The notes beneath the pieces are model-generated. The model worked only from the letters and a program-made list of their open reading frames with translations. It did not search any database and was not told the origin of the DNA. From a virus: a DNA stretch of 23,550 bases. A program made the position numbers and the translations under genes. Location of the stretch: the IMG/VR virus record IMGVR_UViG_3300033388_001587, positions 1-23,550 of that record; one strand, written 5' to 3'. Below, one piece after another: positions 2,836 to 19,723 of this stretch (the stretch's first letter is position 1; the number at the start of each line of letters is the position of its first letter).

Positions 2836-3533
2836 TAGACAAATCCTTTACCAATCATTCTACCACTCTTGAAATCATCAAGACTGAAATTATCACGTAC
2901 ATCTCTAGGATTAGGTTGTACTTGTAACATAACAGTAAGTGTCATTATTGACGGCATCCATGTTGTTTGGTCAGTGCCGATTGTGACGATTCCCTCTGAG
3001 TTCTCGCTTATGAGATTCTCATTTGATAGCGCGCCTGGAAGCTGAACCTGAACGTAATCTACATCATTCTCTAAAATATAGTTGAACGTAGATACAACAA
3101 CAGGAACATTATTGAACATGTGTCCACCCATGTAGTTGAATCGTAGTACGGGAGGAGGTGTTCCTGCCTTTCCTGTTTGTGCAGCCTGTGTACCGAATTC
3201 AATCATGGTGGCTGCACGTAAAAACTTCAGAACTGCTAGCATATAACGTGCCTCTTCGTTTGTTTGTGCAGTAAAATCACCAGTAATAGTGATAGCATCA
3301 GGTTGTGAGTTTTGATATTGGTAATGTGGATAGTTACTGTGGGTAAAATGGAAGTTACCATAGTTCGCAATAGCGCCTGTCATTACGTTAGGCGTATACG
3401 GAAAGATGATTCCTCTAGTTTTGCGTATAGGCTGCAATAGGTTATCACAATCTTGTGCGCTACCTAGTACTTCGTCCAGCGCGCCGAACGCTGGCCCTAA
3501 TCTTGCTCGTTTATGAATTGTTAAATTGCTCAT
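2835..3533 (-). CDS. Baseplate tail-tube junction protein, gp48/gp54-like
   Basis: A 232-residue protein. It carries the pattern I associate with T4-like tail-tube cap proteins: YTPNV at about 46, HTHSNY-like FTHSNYPHYQYQN, an ITGDFTAQTNEEARYMLAVL stretch, FLRAATMIEFG, GTPPPVLRF, MFNNVPVVVSTF, and NDVDYVQV. These match the tube-fold proteins that link baseplate hub and tail tube (gp48 and gp54 in T4); I cannot say which of the two it is. It is the first gene of the minus-strand baseplate operon. The leader contains AGAGGAG just upstream of the ATG and a GATAAATA late promoter 22 bases before the start. Confidence 0.62.
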   Translation of the reverse strand: MSNLTIHKRARLGPAFGALDEVLGSAQDCDNLLQPIRKTRGIIFPYTPNVMTGAIANYGNFHFTHSNYPHYQYQNSQPDAITITGDFTAQTNEEARYMLAVLKFLRAATMIEFGTQAAQTGKAGTPPPVLRFNYMGGHMFNNVPVVVSTFNYILENDVDYVQVQLPGALSNENLISENSEGIVTIGTDQTTWMPSIMTLTVMLQVQPNPRDVRDNFSLDDFKSGRMIGKGFV

Positions 3534-8185: not shown

Positions 8186-8522
8186 GCCTACCCCAAAAAC
8201 TCATCGCAAAATTCTGCGACGACCTATTAAACTAGAGCCAGGTATAAGTATTACCTCATTTGATGTTAGTGATCGTGGATCGCGCATTGAAAAGCTTCCA
8301 CCCTTTGGTGAATACGATCCCAACCGAGTACACGTAGCACGACGTAGAAGGGCACACAAAGAGAACAAAATGTTTCCAAGAGGCTGGAAATTTGAATTTG
8401 GTGGAGCTACTGATTACCAAATTAGTGAAAGCGCAGTTAAAGCACTTACAGATGGAGCTATGACTACAATTACTAAAACATCAAAAGGTCATTGGACTGT
8501 TTTTGGAGAGGACATATCATAA
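8178..8522 (+). CDS. Basic protein, tag ORF 5 (114 aa, unknown), paralogue of tag ORF 4
   Basis: It starts MRKPTPKTHRKILRRP, a variant of the N-terminal motif of this gene group. The centre has RVHVARRRRAHKENK (about 50-64), matching tag ORF 4 in sequence and order. The C-terminal half (WKFEFGGATDYQI and on) looks like a small alpha/beta segment of no recognised family. Its stop overlaps the purF start (TAATG), and the purF ribosome-binding site (GGAGAGG) lies inside it, so it is coupled to purF. Confidence 0.68.
   Translation: MRKPTPKTHRKILRRPIKLEPGISITSFDVSDRGSRIEKLPPFGEYDPNRVHVARRRRAHKENKMFPRGWKFEFGGATDYQISESAVKALTDGAMTTITKTSKGHWTVFGEDIS
8328..8344 (+). repeat. 17-bp direct repeat, copy 2 (copy 1 at 8060-8076)
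   Basis: Identical to 8060-8076, in the same reading register (VHVARRR) of tag ORF 5. Confidence 0.85.
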
Positions 8523-9973
8523 TGTGTGGTGTAGTAGGAATATTTGGCAGATCGCCTGTTAATCAATCGTTGTATGACTCATTAACAATGTTGCAACACA
8601 GAGGCCAAGATGCCGCAGGCATTGTAACATGTGATGGTGAGGGTTTACATACACGTAAAGGCAATGGCATGGTACGTGACGTATTTCACACACGACATAT
8701 GCGCAGGCTAAAAGGTAACGTAGGCATAGGCCACGTTCGCTATCCCACATCAGGCAAAAAGAAGGCAAAAGAGGCGCAACCATTCTATGTTAATAGTCCC
8801 TACGGTATTTGTTTAGCACACAACGGCAACCTCGTTAATTATGAACAGCTATCTGAAATGCTAGCTACCACTGATTTGCGTCACCTTAACAGTAAGAGTG
8901 ATAGTGAGGTGCTGTTAAATGTATTTGCACATGAGTTACAAAAGATAGGACAACATGGACTAATGGCTGACCGAGTGTTTAACGCTGCAAGCGAACTATT
9001 CAAACGTGTAAGCGGTGGTTATGCTGTTGTGTCAATCATAGCAAACAATGGGCTCGTAGCATTCCGTGATCCTCATGGGATTCGTCCACTAGTGTTAGGC
9101 AAACGCGACGGTCCCTCAGGGATCGAGTATATGATTGCAAGCGAGAGCGTGGCACTTGACGCATTGGATTTTGAGCGTGTGCGTGACGTAGCTCCAGGTG
9201 AGGTAATATTTATCGACAACAAGGGACGCCTACACACAAAAATATGTTCAGACAAAACACAATGGTCACCATGTATATTTGAATTTGTGTACTTGGCTCG
9301 TCCTGACAGCATAATTGATGGACTCTCAGTTTATAAGGCTCGGCTACGTATGGGCGAGCAGTTGGCAGAGAAGATTATACGTGAGAACAAACACCTTGAC
9401 ATTGATGTTGTTATCCCTATACCTGACACAAGCCGCACACCTGCTGTGCAAGTAGCACACGGACTGGGTGTTAAGTTCCGTGAGGGATTCATTAAGAACC
9501 GATACATAGCTCGCACATTCATTATGCCAGGACAGGCTGAACGTGAAAAGTCTGTCAAACAAAAACTTAATGCTATTGAACTAGAATTCAAAGACAAAAA
9601 TGTACTGTTGGTAGATGACAGTATTGTGCGCGGCACTACGTCGCGTGAAATCATAAAAATGGCGCGCAGGGCAGGGGCGAGGAAAGTATACTTCGCATCT
9701 GCTGCACCCCCTGTGCGCTATCCTAATGTATACGGCATCAACATGCCCACTTTCTCCGAACTAATTGCAGCGGACTGTTCGGAAAAAGAAGTGGAACAAT
9801 TGATTGGTGCTGATTGGCTTGTGTATCAAGACCTTGACGCGCTGATTGATTCAGTCAAGTATGAGACAAGCGACATAAACACGTTTGACACATCGTGTTT
9901 TTCAGGCAACTATATTACGAACGATGTTACAGCCGAATACTTAATCAACTTAGAAAAGAGAGAAAACAAATGA
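8522..9973 (+). CDS. purF: Amidophosphoribosyltransferase (PurF)
   Basis: Catalyses the first committed step of purine synthesis: PRPP plus glutamine gives phosphoribosylamine. The start at 8522 puts the nucleophile cysteine at position 2 (MCGVVGIFG), as needed for an N-terminal glutaminase site after Met removal, with GGAGAGG upstream. Further in-frame starts upstream would bury the cysteine. Other motifs: LQHRGQDAAGI (24-34), GIGHVRYPTSG (68-78), HNGNL (100-104), ARPDSIIDGLSVY (259-271), and the PRPP loop VLLVDDSIVRGTT (361-373). At 483 residues it is close to full length (E. coli 505), has no propeptide, and its C-terminus (CFSGNYITNDV) follows the E. coli-type pattern. All catalytic motifs are intact. 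The stop overlaps the glutamine synthetase start (ATGA). Confidence 0.95.
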   Translation: MCGVVGIFGRSPVNQSLYDSLTMLQHRGQDAAGIVTCDGEGLHTRKGNGMVRDVFHTRHMRRLKGNVGIGHVRYPTSGKKKAKEAQPFYVNSPYGICLAHNGNLVNYEQLSEMLATTDLRHLNSKSDSEVLLNVFAHELQKIGQHGLMADRVFNAASELFKRVSGGYAVVSIIANNGLVAFRDPHGIRPLVLGKRDGPSGIEYMIASESVALDALDFERVRDVAPGEVIFIDNKGRLHTKICSDKTQWSPCIFEFVYLARPDSIIDGLSVYKARLRMGEQLAEKIIRENKHLDIDVVIPIPDTSRTPAVQVAHGLGVKFREGFIKNRYIARTFIMPGQAEREKSVKQKLNAIELEFKDKNVLLVDDSIVRGTTSREIIKMARRAGARKVYFASAAPPVRYPNVYGINMPTFSELIAADCSEKEVEQLIGADWLVYQDLDALIDSVKYETSDINTFDTSCFSGNYITNDVTAEYLINLEKRENK

Positions 9974-13114: not shown

Positions 13115-13330
13115 TTACATCTGTTCTGGTGCGTCTGGATCTTTGTTCATCTCGTTTACGTAATCAACTACTGCGTTTCTCTGTATGGAACTCATGCCCC
13201 AAGCTTCTTCCCAACTAACCCCGCCCTTCATATGATAACAAATGGATATGATTGAACTCTCGATCCGATTGTTAACCGCAGCTAGCATGTTTATATAGTC
13301 CTTAATCTCTTCCGCGGAAGCATATGTCAA
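13115..13330 (-). CDS. C-terminal extension ORF of the tail-assembly chaperone (probably made by -1 frameshift)
   Basis: A 71-codon frame whose first start-like codon is TTG at 13330. There is no ribosome-binding site before it, and the frame stays open upstream to 13357, across the end of the preceding gene. Its -1 register relative to that gene, together with a slippery heptamer at 13342-13348, suggests it is translated as a fusion: residue 283 of the upstream protein followed by 75 residues here, 358 in all. The product is helical, with ICYHMKGGVSWEEAWGMSSIQRN. An independent start is possible at the ATG at 13288 (57 residues), which has AAGGA ten bases upstream. The layout copies lambda G/GT tail chaperones. 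Confidence 0.6.
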   Translation of the reverse strand: MTYASAEEIKDYINMLAAVNNRIESSIISICYHMKGGVSWEEAWGMSSIQRNAVVDYVNEMNKDPDAPEQM

Positions 13331-13335
13331 GAACT

Positions 13336-14190
13336 TTAAGAAAAATTTACAGGGTTAAACTCGATAGGCGCATCCCATTGTGTGCCACATTCTGTGCATG
13401 TAGCAGGTACTGTTTTAGCAATACCAATTTTATTTACGTCGATAATTTTCTCCTCTATCTTATCAACTGTTGACTTATCAATATTTTGAATCCATTCGTT
13501 TATAAATTTTAGCTCAGTAACTTCCTTTACTTCACCTTCTTCATCTGTGTATGCAATACCCTTAATTGAATTACTAATGAGTTCAAAGTTAAGCTTAGAC
13601 ATGTTTTCAAATACATTTGACAGTATTTTAAGACGTTGTTCGTCAGTCATTTCGGGTGTAGCTACTGCATCCTGTAGTTTAGTATTTTCAAATGCCGCCT
13701 TTTGTTGGCGAACCATAGAATCAAATGATCCAGGACGTATATAGACTGTCAATGCATCATCAATAACAACTTCATAGCTTTCATCAATTGTTTCTGCTTG
13801 GTTCAATAATGTTTCAAGCGGCAATGTGAACGTGTTTTCATGCTTGCAATCAAATTTAGGGCACTCTAATTCCATATTGGCTTCTTCACCGTAGGAAGCT
13901 ACACGTATAGCAATCATTAGCACATCAATATCACATGCTAGCAGGGAACGTGGCTTACTAATGTTTGGGACACAACTCTTTATTACATCAAGAGCCGCCT
14001 GTCCAGTTAGTAGTGCATCTGGATTCTGAAGTGTAATCTCATCCTGTGCCGTCATTGGATAGATAGGTAGTTCATCTGCATCATCGAATGTTAATACATT
14101 ATCAGCATAGTACTTGCCGCGTGAGGGCAGTCCTACTGAAAGCTTCACATTCCTGTAATACTTTTGTAATGGGTTGTCGCCTTGTGCCAT
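13336..14190 (-). CDS. T4 baseplate hub/tail-assembly chaperone, gp26/gp51-like
   Basis: A 284-residue protein matching the T4 base plate family that includes gp26 and gp51: LPSRGKYY (21-28), LPIYPMTAQDEITLQNPDALLTG (41-63, the strongest signature), IKSCVPNI (70-77), DIDVLMIAIRVASYG (87-101). Four to five possible zinc ligands follow: C110, C115, H117, and C265 with C268 (CTEC). Members are thought to act in hub and tape-measure assembly and are not all in the mature virion. It is the first gene of the minus-strand tail operon behind a late promoter at 14264-14271. AGAGGAACG precedes the ATG. Its end overlaps the extension ORF through a slippery sequence. Confidence 0.8.
   Translation of the reverse strand: MAQGDNPLQKYYRNVKLSVGLPSRGKYYADNVLTFDDADELPIYPMTAQDEITLQNPDALLTGQAALDVIKSCVPNISKPRSLLACDIDVLMIAIRVASYGEEANMELECPKFDCKHENTFTLPLETLLNQAETIDESYEVVIDDALTVYIRPGSFDSMVRQQKAAFENTKLQDAVATPEMTDEQRLKILSNVFENMSKLNFELISNSIKGIAYTDEEGEVKEVTELKFINEWIQNIDKSTVDKIEEKIIDVNKIGIAKTVPATCTECGTQWDAPIEFNPVNFS
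13342..13348 (-). other. Candidate -1 ribosomal frameshift site (A AAT TTT)
   Basis: On the minus strand the chaperone gene ends GTA AAT TTT TCT TAA. The heptamer A AAT TTT fits the X-XXY-YYZ slippery rule in the correct zero-frame register. A -1 slip reads AAA TTT TTC TTA AAG TTC TTG and enters the downstream frame without a stop. A 12-base palindrome (CTTCCGCGGAAG, 13309-13320) starts 21 bases downstream and could form only a weak stem. Confidence 0.55.
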
Positions 14191-14298: not shown

Positions 14299-16467
14299 AT
14301 GGCAGACATGGGCGGCGACGTATATATAACTGGAGCGGACTTCGGTGGCGATCTTCCACAGTGGGCAACTGAGACTACTGCCGTATCTATGGCGGCAGCA
14401 CTCGCTGAATTAGTGGAAATTACTGACAAGCAACAACAGAAACTAGTTGACCAGCTAAAGAAAAACGGCGAAGCCACTAAAGAAGTTGCTGAGACAATAG
14501 GCAAAAAAGGAGTTGCAGGATCACTGAAGGAAGACCTCGCAAAAGTAAGTGATGAAGCATTAGATACCGCTGCAGGATTTGATAAAGTAAACAAACATAT
14601 GCCAGGATTTGGCAAGTATCTCAAGGAGATGCCAAAGTCCTTGAAGCTAGGACTTGCGGGCTTTGGTGGTTTAGTAGCAGGTATGACGTATGCTATAGAT
14701 ATTATACGTAATACTGCTGGTGTAATGAAGGACATGAATGATTCTGGTATCATCGTTGAAGGCGGGATACGTGAATTACAACACAGTCTAGCACAAACAG
14801 GTATGACCCTTGACCAGTTAAGTTCAATCACCGAGAAGTATTCACGAGTTGTAGGAACAAATGGCTGGAAAGCAATCACAAGTCTTACTGCTTCTGTCAA
14901 TGAAGCAGACGGCGGCTTCAGGAAATATGGTATTACAACGGCTGAAGCAACAGAATTTACAGCAGAATACTTAGATCAACAGCGTATGGCTGGTGTATTC
15001 GGTGCAGCATCGCAGCGCGGCCAAAGTAAGGCATTACAAGAGAATGTTGAACGCTTGACTGCATACTCCAAGACCCTAAACGTTTCACGTAAAGCAATGA
15101 TGGATTCAGTTACAGCATTGAAGGGCAGGGAAGACGTACAGGCAGCATTTGCACTAATGTCAGTCGAAGAGAGGAAGGCAGCAAGTGCCGCATTCGACGC
15201 TACTATACAGGGCTTTGCGTCACTTGGTCCTGCTGGTGAAAAGTTTGGTTCAATGCTAACAGATATGATAGCAAATCCAACTGCAGAAGCATCAGAATCA
15301 TTTAAAGCAATTGCAGCGGCTGCTCCTGACCTAGCACAAGATTTGGTTAGCATGTCTAAGCGTGTTAAGGCTGGCGAGAAAATATCTCAAGAAGAAATTA
15401 TGACCACGCTTGAAAAAGCAGGCAACAACAAAGAAGTATTGAAGCAACTAAAACGTGCAGGCGGCGAAATTGGTGCAATGGCTGACTCAATTCTAGTAGC
15501 ATCACTAGCTAGAGAAAATGCTGAGAAGAATGAAGCTATAAATAAGGAAAAGTTCTCTAAGGAATCCGAAGAAATACAATCAAAAGGCTATGAGGCATGG
15601 CTAGCAACATCAGGTGAAGCAATACAAGGTGTTACTGGTGTAGATGATGCGATGGCTAAGTTACATGCAACTATTGAGGAACAAGTATCAGGTGCATTCT
15701 TAGACTTAGTAGGTGACGAAGGCGGACAAGGTGTTAAAGGATTGATTGCAGGCATTGACAAAATGACTGAGATGATTGGTATGTTTGATGATTCAGGCAT
15801 AGTTAAAAACTTTAGGGCACTTTTTGGTGAAGGTGTCCCAGGATTGCTTGGTGCATTAGGTACCCTATCAGCAGTAATATTACTCGGTCCTTATGCACTA
15901 GTAAATCTACCTGCTATAATAACGAAGGTAGGAACTTCGTTCAAGTCAGTATTTACAGGTCTTTTTGGAAAGGAAAGTATGTTTGCTAAAGGATTAACGA
16001 GACTAGGCGGACAATTATCAAAATCGGTAACTAGTTTAGGTGGGTGGGGCAAAGCATTAGGTAAAGGTAGCCTTGTAGCAGGCGCGGCATATGCTGGATG
16101 GAAAGTTGGTAGTGAAATATACAAACGAAATGCAGTAGGTATTCAGGACAAGCTAGCAGAATGGTTTCCACACGATAAAGGCGATCAACCAGATTATGCT
16201 AGCGGTAAAGTAGATTTCAAAACAGGCAAAGTCCGAACAGCAGATGAACAAAAGCTGCATGAAGAAATGCGAGCAAAACGACGAGCAGAAGCAGCCTCAG
16301 TAGCAGCCACAAGTTCAGCAACAGGAGCACCAAGCCAAACTCCACCTGAGGCAGCACCATCAATGAGTGACGCAGACATAGCTAAACTTGATGTTGCAGG
16401 CCAACAACTCTATTATGCTAAACGAATGGTTAGATTAATGGAAGCTAGCGGCGGAATGATGGCCTAA
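14299..16467 (+). CDS. Tape-measure-like tail protein
   Basis: A 722-residue, alanine-rich, mostly helical protein with hydrophobic segments at about 116-137 (LGLAGFGGLVAGMTYAIDII), 511-540 (LLGALGTLSAVILLGPYALV and on) and 588-605 (GSLVAGAAYAGWKVGS), and a low-complexity A/S/P region near 655-690. Long helices with membrane-like segments are typical of tape-measure proteins, which set tail length and enter the host envelope. By the usual rule of about 0.15 nm per residue, 722 residues fit a tail near 100 nm, T4-sized. The divergent neighbour is the gp26/51-like chaperone, which supports the call. T4 gp29 is shorter (590). An internal head or other structural protein is the alternative. GAGGGG precedes the ATG. 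Confidence 0.6.
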   Translation: MADMGGDVYITGADFGGDLPQWATETTAVSMAAALAELVEITDKQQQKLVDQLKKNGEATKEVAETIGKKGVAGSLKEDLAKVSDEALDTAAGFDKVNKHMPGFGKYLKEMPKSLKLGLAGFGGLVAGMTYAIDIIRNTAGVMKDMNDSGIIVEGGIRELQHSLAQTGMTLDQLSSITEKYSRVVGTNGWKAITSLTASVNEADGGFRKYGITTAEATEFTAEYLDQQRMAGVFGAASQRGQSKALQENVERLTAYSKTLNVSRKAMMDSVTALKGREDVQAAFALMSVEERKAASAAFDATIQGFASLGPAGEKFGSMLTDMIANPTAEASESFKAIAAAAPDLAQDLVSMSKRVKAGEKISQEEIMTTLEKAGNNKEVLKQLKRAGGEIGAMADSILVASLARENAEKNEAINKEKFSKESEEIQSKGYEAWLATSGEAIQGVTGVDDAMAKLHATIEEQVSGAFLDLVGDEGGQGVKGLIAGIDKMTEMIGMFDDSGIVKNFRALFGEGVPGLLGALGTLSAVILLGPYALVNLPAIITKVGTSFKSVFTGLFGKESMFAKGLTRLGGQLSKSVTSLGGWGKALGKGSLVAGAAYAGWKVGSEIYKRNAVGIQDKLAEWFPHDKGDQPDYASGKVDFKTGKVRTADEQKLHEEMRAKRRAEAASVAATSSATGAPSQTPPEAAPSMSDADIAKLDVAGQQLYYAKRMVRLMEASGGMMA

Positions 16468-18898: not shown

Positions 18899-19723
18899 AT
18901 GGCACATCAGCAGAAACTTGAGCAGATCCTAGATCTACTCATTAATGAAGAAACTGGTCCTGCATCCGAACTTCTACACTCCGTCATCGTTGAAAAAGCA
19001 CGTACTATGTACGAAGATCTTGTTGAAGAAGATTTTGGTGGCGACGAAAAAGAAGACTTTGCAAGTGAGATCGAAGCCGATAAGGAAGAGATCGAGTCAG
19101 ATGAAATTTATGATGACGAAGGCGAAGAGGAAGGCGACGAAGAAGGTGATTCGGACGAGCCTGCAGAAGAAGAAGAAATTGAAGACCGCATTGAAGATGT
19201 TGAAGCGCAGCTAGCCGAGCTAACTGCACAGTTTGAACAGATTATTGGCGGCGACGAAGGCGAACTTGAAGGCGAAGTTGAGCTAGGCGGAGAAGAAGCG
19301 TTCGGTGACGAAGGTTTTGGCGAAGTTGAGCTAGGCGGAGAAGAAGAGTATGCTGAAGAAAGCATGTACGAAGAGGTCATTGATGAACTCGACGAAGCAA
19401 CAAAGCTACAAGACGAAGTCTCAGGCAACCCACTTGACAGCGAAGGTAAACTAGCTGGCACTGGCAAAAACTCTAAGACAGGCGCAACAGGCAAGGAAAG
19501 CCCATTTACAAGAGCTCCATCAAAAGCAGATCACGGTGGCAAGCCAGTAGTAAGAAAAGGTGGCGACGAGTCTAGCAAGAAAGTAGGCGAAGGCGAAGAC
19601 AACACTCCAACATCAAACATTGACGTTAAATCAGGCGAGAAACAGTCTGCAAGCAACGATGCTAAAGATGACAAGGGTGCAAAAAGCCCACTAGGTAGCA
19701 AGGGTAGCCCAAAAGGCAACTAA
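18899..19723 (+). CDS. Acidic prohead core protein (gp67-like)
   Basis: A 274-residue, extremely acidic protein. A short helical start (residues 1-45, ELLHSVIVEKARTMYEDLVEE) is followed by about 130 residues dominated by E, D and G, including a helix DRIEDVEAQLAELTAQFEQI. The tail is low-complexity and rich in K, G, S and N (TGKNSKTGATGKESPFTRAP and on). Its place after the portal and before gp21 is that of T4 gp67, a small acidic core protein cut by gp21, but this one is over three times longer. A duplicated segment GEVELGGEE lies in the acidic part. TTAAGGAGAAAAGGA precedes the ATG. The role is inferred from position and composition. Confidence 0.7.
   Translation: MAHQQKLEQILDLLINEETGPASELLHSVIVEKARTMYEDLVEEDFGGDEKEDFASEIEADKEEIESDEIYDDEGEEEGDEEGDSDEPAEEEEIEDRIEDVEAQLAELTAQFEQIIGGDEGELEGEVELGGEEAFGDEGFGEVELGGEEEYAEESMYEEVIDELDEATKLQDEVSGNPLDSEGKLAGTGKNSKTGATGKESPFTRAPSKADHGGKPVVRKGGDESSKKVGEGEDNTPTSNIDVKSGEKQSASNDAKDDKGAKSPLGSKGSPKGN
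19271..19346 (+). repeat. 28-bp tandem-like direct repeat in the acidic core gene
   Basis: An identical 28-base segment beginning GGCGAAGTTGAGCTAGGCGG occurs at 19271-19298 and 19319-19346, 48 bases apart and in frame. It encodes GEVELGGEE twice. Perfect identity suggests a recent in-frame duplication. Confidence 0.85.

Follow-up and report, generated by a model that had tools for sequence, protein, structure and literature searches.

A gp26-like gene of a T4-like phage very probably encodes two tail assembly chaperones by -1 frameshifting

One gene of the window, the whole 23,550-base IMG/VR virus record analysed here, very probably gives rise to two tail assembly chaperones by programmed -1 ribosomal frameshifting, as judged from its sequence and from those of its relatives. 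The frameshift arrangement at positions 13115–14190 is confirmed at the level of sequence. The initial annotation had proposed a G/GT-type -1 frameshift in this T4-family chaperone gene, here assigned to PF12322, and the proposal is supported by the conservation of the slippery heptamer and of its register, by a -1 frame that is conserved up to the heptamer, and by a stem-loop located downstream.

Organization of the chaperone gene

The 0-frame gene occupies positions 13336–14190 of the minus strand and encodes a gp26-like protein of 284 residues, a putative short tail assembly chaperone (TAC-N) belonging to PF12322 (T4_baseplate) and phrog_150. Its 3′ end reads CCT GTA AAT TTT TCT TAA. The heptamer A AAT TTT (13342–13348, minus strand) is in phase with the 0 frame, in the register that is right for tandem -1 slippage, and is followed after one codon by the 0-frame stop TAA (13336–13338). 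After a slip, reading would continue as TTC TTA AAG TTC TTG and so on to the TAA at 13117–13115. The -1 frame extension (13115–13342, minus strand) comprises 75 codons and a TAA; it would add 75 residues beyond F283 and result in a fusion (TAC-NC) of 358 residues. The listed 71-codon open reading frame in this region (13115–13330) begins with TTG, and the earliest ATG of the extension is at 13288, with a weak AAGGA about 10 nt upstream. The coordinates and the length of the fusion given in the initial annotation are correct.

Elsewhere in the window, a gene for a PurF-like glutamine amidotransferase/phosphoribosyltransferase (8519–9973, plus strand) is directly followed by a glutamine synthetase-like gene (PF00120; 9967–10986, plus strand). 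This pair of nitrogen and purine metabolism genes on a T4-like phage contig is positioned downstream of a gp46/gp47-like pair. A putative PDDEXK endonuclease (PF24608; 11031–11534, plus strand) is encoded downstream of the glutamine synthetase-like gene. A 274-codon open reading frame (18899–19723, plus strand) located between the portal and head-protease genes specifies a very acidic, Glu/Gly-rich product with no PHROG match.

Conservation of the slippery site

Scanning IMG/VR with the single sequence identified one close relative only, and the wider set of relatives was found by an alignment query. The heptamer in phase and a -1 extension were present in all 18 of the first relatives examined. 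The complete set contains 185 single-gene gp26-like relatives, including that of the window, with 127 distinct extensions; it spans jumbo phages, cyanophages, a schizotequatrovirus, rhizobial and Stenotrophomonas phages, and IMG/VR contigs, and excludes T4-type phages with separate genes 26 and 51. Comparing the overlap among these relatives, as the initial annotation had suggested, identified a heptamer in phase, T TTT TTY or A AAT TTT, together with an open -1 frame in 183 of the 185 genes, a count that overstates independence because the loci are related to each other. The arrangement is present in 100 of 101 jumbo-type, IMG/VR and other loci, and T TTT TTC in 80/80 cyanophage loci from IMG/VR; the heptamer is also found in Mendera, the schizotequatrovirus ValKK3, and the cyanophage syn9. 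The extensions are 58–103 codons long, with a median of 77.

The 127 distinct extensions follow T TTT TTC (112), A AAT TTT (11), T TTT TTT (3), or T TTT TTA (1). In the T6 class (116 distinct loci), the codon that contributes the first T specifies N, S, D, A, H, T, R, or Y and invariably ends in T. The log10 probability of this would be -25 if the loci were unrelated, but they are not. Where the heptamer is A AAT TTT, its first A belongs to a valine codon, which is GTA in all 11 distinct loci, although GTA makes up 39% of the valine codons in these genes. Among loci with AAT TTT TTN, the preceding codon ends in A in 41 of 47; therefore, many sites are overlapping double heptamers, A AAT TTT TTC, of which the clade of the window retains the first half only. 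A Shine-Dalgarno-like stimulator upstream of the heptamer is not a common feature (43 of 127 distinct loci).

The two genes of the 185 in which the canonical heptamer is absent are those of locus L027 and of Salmonella phage Marshall (Ackermannviridae; L190). The sequence of L027 at about 3330–3355 is ATG TCT TTT TCT TCC, and the -1 frame FFRFLISAPPEEI is kept; a weaker site, T TTT TCT, may serve in L027, or its sequence may contain an error. In phage Marshall (about 2300–2480 of L190), the gp26-like gene is followed by a 57-residue -1 frame resembling the extension, and the junction, GAA ATT TTC ATT TAA, has no X XXY YYZ heptamer.

Selection on the extension

The reading of the extension as protein-coding is reflected in its substitutions. 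In 111 pairs of relatives with 75–97% DNA identity, pN/pS of the -1 frame is 0.15, compared with 1.3 and 2.0 for the two other frames, and pN is lower than pS for the -1 frame in all 111 pairs. Even in loci that have no start codon within codons 3–34, pN/pS of these codons is 0.34, as opposed to 1.2 and 1.5 in the other frames; therefore, the coding constraint reaches up to the heptamer.

This bears on the strongest alternative, which is nevertheless very improbable: that a small gene of its own encodes the extension, with translation initiated at TTG 13330 or ATG 13288, perhaps by termination coupling to the gp26-like gene. The records of most relatives do annotate the extension separately, an ATG overlaps the 0-frame stop in some of them, and in the window the weak AAGGA precedes ATG 13288. 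However, independent initiation does not explain, on the sequence data, the purifying selection on codons between the heptamer and the first possible start. The extension of PA5oct contains no ATG, GTG, or TTG anywhere in frame, and 37 of 121 full-length extensions are devoid of any start codon in their first 20 codons. Furthermore, the heptamer marks the start of a conserved motif, FF(R)..L, and its own wobble positions are conserved as well. Some relatives carry an ATG near the 0-frame stop, yet the heptamer is also present there; among the relatives, none was found that combines a well-placed ATG and ribosome-binding site with the lack of a slippery sequence.

Predicted stem-loop downstream of the heptamer

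A stem-loop with a predicted stimulatory function and a folding energy of -10.6 kcal/mol is located 6 nt past the heptamer (13297–13335, minus strand). Its outer stem consists of 9 base pairs, formed by positions 13335–13327 with 13305–13297. Relative to recodings that keep the -1 protein, the stem-loop of the window has a z-score of -2.79, with 0.7% of the recodings being equally stable. Mean z-scores against synonymous recoding are -2.28 in the clade of the window (8 of 11 sequences below -2), -1.40 in other gp26 loci, and -2.32 in cyanophages, whereas the corresponding values for a control region of the same extensions are 0.27, -0.47, and -0.17. Across 12 sequences, 95.8% of cells for the four outer pairs are paired, a value that falls to 29–58% when the pairing partner is slid; two pairs of the outer stem show changes on both sides. 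The stem-loop is missing from L018, which at 60% is among the closest relatives. In its placement and spacing, the structure corresponds to a classical frameshift stimulator, and it may function as one.

The stem-loop also helps to distinguish ribosomal slippage from a second, still less probable alternative, in which RNA polymerase slips on the T run and adds a base, so that a mixture of mRNAs specifies the same fusion. The site is indeed a run of five to seven T, and one inserted T would produce an identical protein. However, the runs are short, with T6 in 113, T5 in 11, and T7 in 3 distinct loci, and efficient slippage of bacterial RNA polymerase is known at longer runs. Moreover, the T5 loci invariably keep AAA before the run, which is needed by tandem tRNA slippage and not by slippage of the polymerase, and the 6-nt spacing of the stem-loop suits a stimulator acting on the ribosome.

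Chance occurrence

The last alternative, that the frame is open by accident or that a single contig carries a sequencing indel, is hardly credible: an in-phase AAATTTN or TTTTTTN heptamer does occur in the last 60 nt of 9 of 298 other open reading frames of 150 or more codons from the fetched loci (3%), and dinucleotide shuffling of the window stretch leaves the -1 frame open 37 times in 5000 (0.7%), but the arrangement recurs in more than 180 related genes, including those of isolate genomes, with the -1 frame under selection. None of the 298 control ends has a heptamer followed by 60 or more open -1 codons, the sole apparent matches being the window gene itself. Chance is ruled out by the conservation of both heptamer and -1 frame in relatives.

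Proposed synthesis of the two chaperones

In the proposed mechanism, one gene would provide two tail assembly chaperones by programmed -1 ribosomal frameshifting. Most ribosomes would stop at the TAA at 13338–13336 and release the short, 284-residue gp26-like protein. In a minority of ribosomes, tRNA-Asn and tRNA-Phe positioned on AAT TTT would slip back by one base on A AAT TTT, assisted by the stem-loop 6 nt downstream, and these ribosomes would complete the 358-residue protein with its additional helical C-terminal domain. The lambda G/GT pair suggests by analogy that the short form may coat the tape-measure protein and that the long form may recruit the tail-tube subunit. In T4, the short and long products come from the separate, related genes 26 and 51. 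We infer the slippage itself, its efficiency, and the roles of both products.

Relationship to gp26 and gp51 of T4

The 284-residue protein matches PF12322 with 81.7 bits (cut-off 24.5) and phrog_150 'baseplate hub' with an E-value of 5e-28. T4 gp26 and gp51 both belong to PF12322, and each of the 31 sequences aligned as A7 matches this family. When the two T4 proteins are aligned with their relatives, C110 and C115 are invariant, and C265 and C268 nearly so. The 284-residue protein is matched by 63 phage records, 61 of them over at least 80% of its length; among isolates, the nearest are jumbo phages (PA5oct, Phosso, Atu_ph07, CBB, 121Q, RaK2, and others), with 26–36% identity over nearly the full length. 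Comparisons by hhalign of single T4 sequences with alignments of the jumbo-phage N-domain were weak; the assignment to the family is based on the Pfam and PHROG profiles.

T4 genes 26 (208 codons) and 51 (249 codons) are separate and divergent, and neither ends in a slippery heptamer, unlike the single frameshifted gene of the window. The heptamer is likewise absent from the genes of phage 31 and RB43, which have the two-gene arrangement. In the phrog_150 profile of 282 columns, T4 gp26 stops at column 235, gp51 reaches column 280, and the -1 extensions of cyanophages match columns 231–277. The cyanophage extensions also match phrog_634 'baseplate hub assembly catalyst'. Comparison by hhalign with the C-termini of gp51 resulted in a probability of 96.7% for the extensions of cyanophages and vibriophages, and of 85.5% over 34 columns for extensions of the window type. 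The extension thus resembles, in its sequence, the C-terminal domain by which gp51 exceeds gp26.

The extension is predicted by AlphaFold to form four helices (pLDDT 86.6), and the 284-residue protein is modelled with a pLDDT of 87.4. Neither model has a significant match in the PDB; that of the 284-residue protein resembles many predicted phage baseplate-hub proteins.

In a tree of the shared part, T4-type gp26 and gp51 are separated from all the frameshifting genes by a branch with support of 98/95. The split tentatively fits a single duplication that produced the two-gene arrangement of T4; the tree has long branches and midpoint rooting, and which state is ancestral is something that we infer.

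The divergent neighbouring gene

The chaperone gene adjoins a divergently oriented gene of 722 codons (14299–16467, plus strand) that probably encodes the tape-measure protein, the client of the chaperone, an identification that derives from the annotation of relatives and from position. The orthologue in L018 occupies the same position and is 31% identical over the full length; the gene in this position is annotated as a tape measure in SNUABM_47 and has been likened to one in RaK2. CBB_251, which is in the tape-measure position, is an abundant protein of the CBB virion (29 peptides). CBB_250, which is gp26-like, and CBB_249, the extension, are absent from the 55 CBB virion proteins, as chaperones would be, which is weak evidence and comes from a relative. 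The window protein itself has weak family matches only, and tblastn identified no match to it in isolate phages. The tape-measure assignment of the initial annotation is plausible from the relatives.

Comparison with known chaperone systems

The tail assembly chaperones G and GT of phage lambda (Levin 1993; Xu 2004; reviewed in Atkins 2016, PMC5009743) can be likened to the window locus by arrangement. In lambda, one gene specifies a short product and a -1 product with an extra C-terminal domain, as is proposed for the window, and it is located beside the gene for the tape measure, the probable identity of the neighbour in the window. However, the tape-measure gene of lambda is downstream on the same strand, whereas the probable one of the window is divergent, and the heptamers here are A AAT TTT or T TTT TTY. 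Lambda gpG and gpGT are not present in virions (PMC5009743); among the relatives of the window, CBB weakly points to the same.

According to PMC5009743, the lambda-type frameshift is widely conserved 'except T4'. Vladimirov, Gautam and Davidson identified the T4 chaperone genes in 2022 (doi 10.1016/j.virol.2021.11.003, as cited in PMC10885494 and PMC12846349). PMC10885494 cites their study for the replacement of the frameshift in T4-like phages by a short gene and a fused long gene, and PMC12846349 cites it for poly-T frameshift signals in the TAC-N genes of such phages. In Pseudomonas phage Adele (Vandenendeviridae/Andersonviridae), a conserved -1 frameshift at poly-T GTTTTT, resulting in TAC-N and TAC-NC, has been proposed (PMC12846349); it is like that of the window in arrangement and comes from other phage families. 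The frameshift in phage chaperone genes, the T4 chaperone genes (2022), and, according to the citing papers, poly-T signals in chaperone genes of T4-like phages are already known. The initial annotation had suggested that the frameshift, if real, links the T4 chaperones to the general scheme; as a new link this is only partly right, since the T4 chaperone genes had been published in 2022. Four points may be new: how widely the arrangement occurs, the stem-loop, the use of A AAT TTT as a variant site, and a reason for the 'truncated' gp51 of cyanophages.

The gp51 protein of cyanophage and marine vibriophage genomes is without the first ~200 residues and has been called 'reduced gp51' (Sullivan 2010, PMC3037559). 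Its gene, which directly follows that for gp26, has been annotated on its own as a shortened one. The reduced gp51 of all 80 IMG/VR cyanophage loci, of syn9, of Sf-FS3, and of vibriophage ValKK3 lies in the -1 frame downstream of T TTT TTC, and judged by sequence it is best read as a frameshift extension of gp26. A limited literature search found no link of cyanophage gp51 to frameshifting. Short genes annotated separately under the name 'baseplate hub assembly catalyst gp51' are found at 3199–3390 of L022, at 2271–2414 of L192, and at similar cyanophage loci; they occupy the -1 frame downstream of T TTT TTC in the gp26 gene.

It is likely that a -1 frameshift with a 3′ stem-loop is general, and probably ancestral, in the T4 supergroup, taken here as jumbo phages, cyanophages, schizotequatroviruses, and rhizobial phages; that gp51 of cyanophages is the frameshift tail of gp26 rather than a separate catalyst; and that the two genes of T4 arose by one duplication and an in-frame fusion. 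If this is true, the T4 exception (Atkins 2016, PMC5009743) would be limited to the closer relatives of T4, and the rest of the supergroup would obey the rule. Re-annotation of many database entries as a single frameshifted gene would then be needed, and the unusual shortness of cyanophage gp51 (Sullivan 2010, PMC3037559) would be accounted for. The extra domain of gp51 would become testable as a T-like domain.
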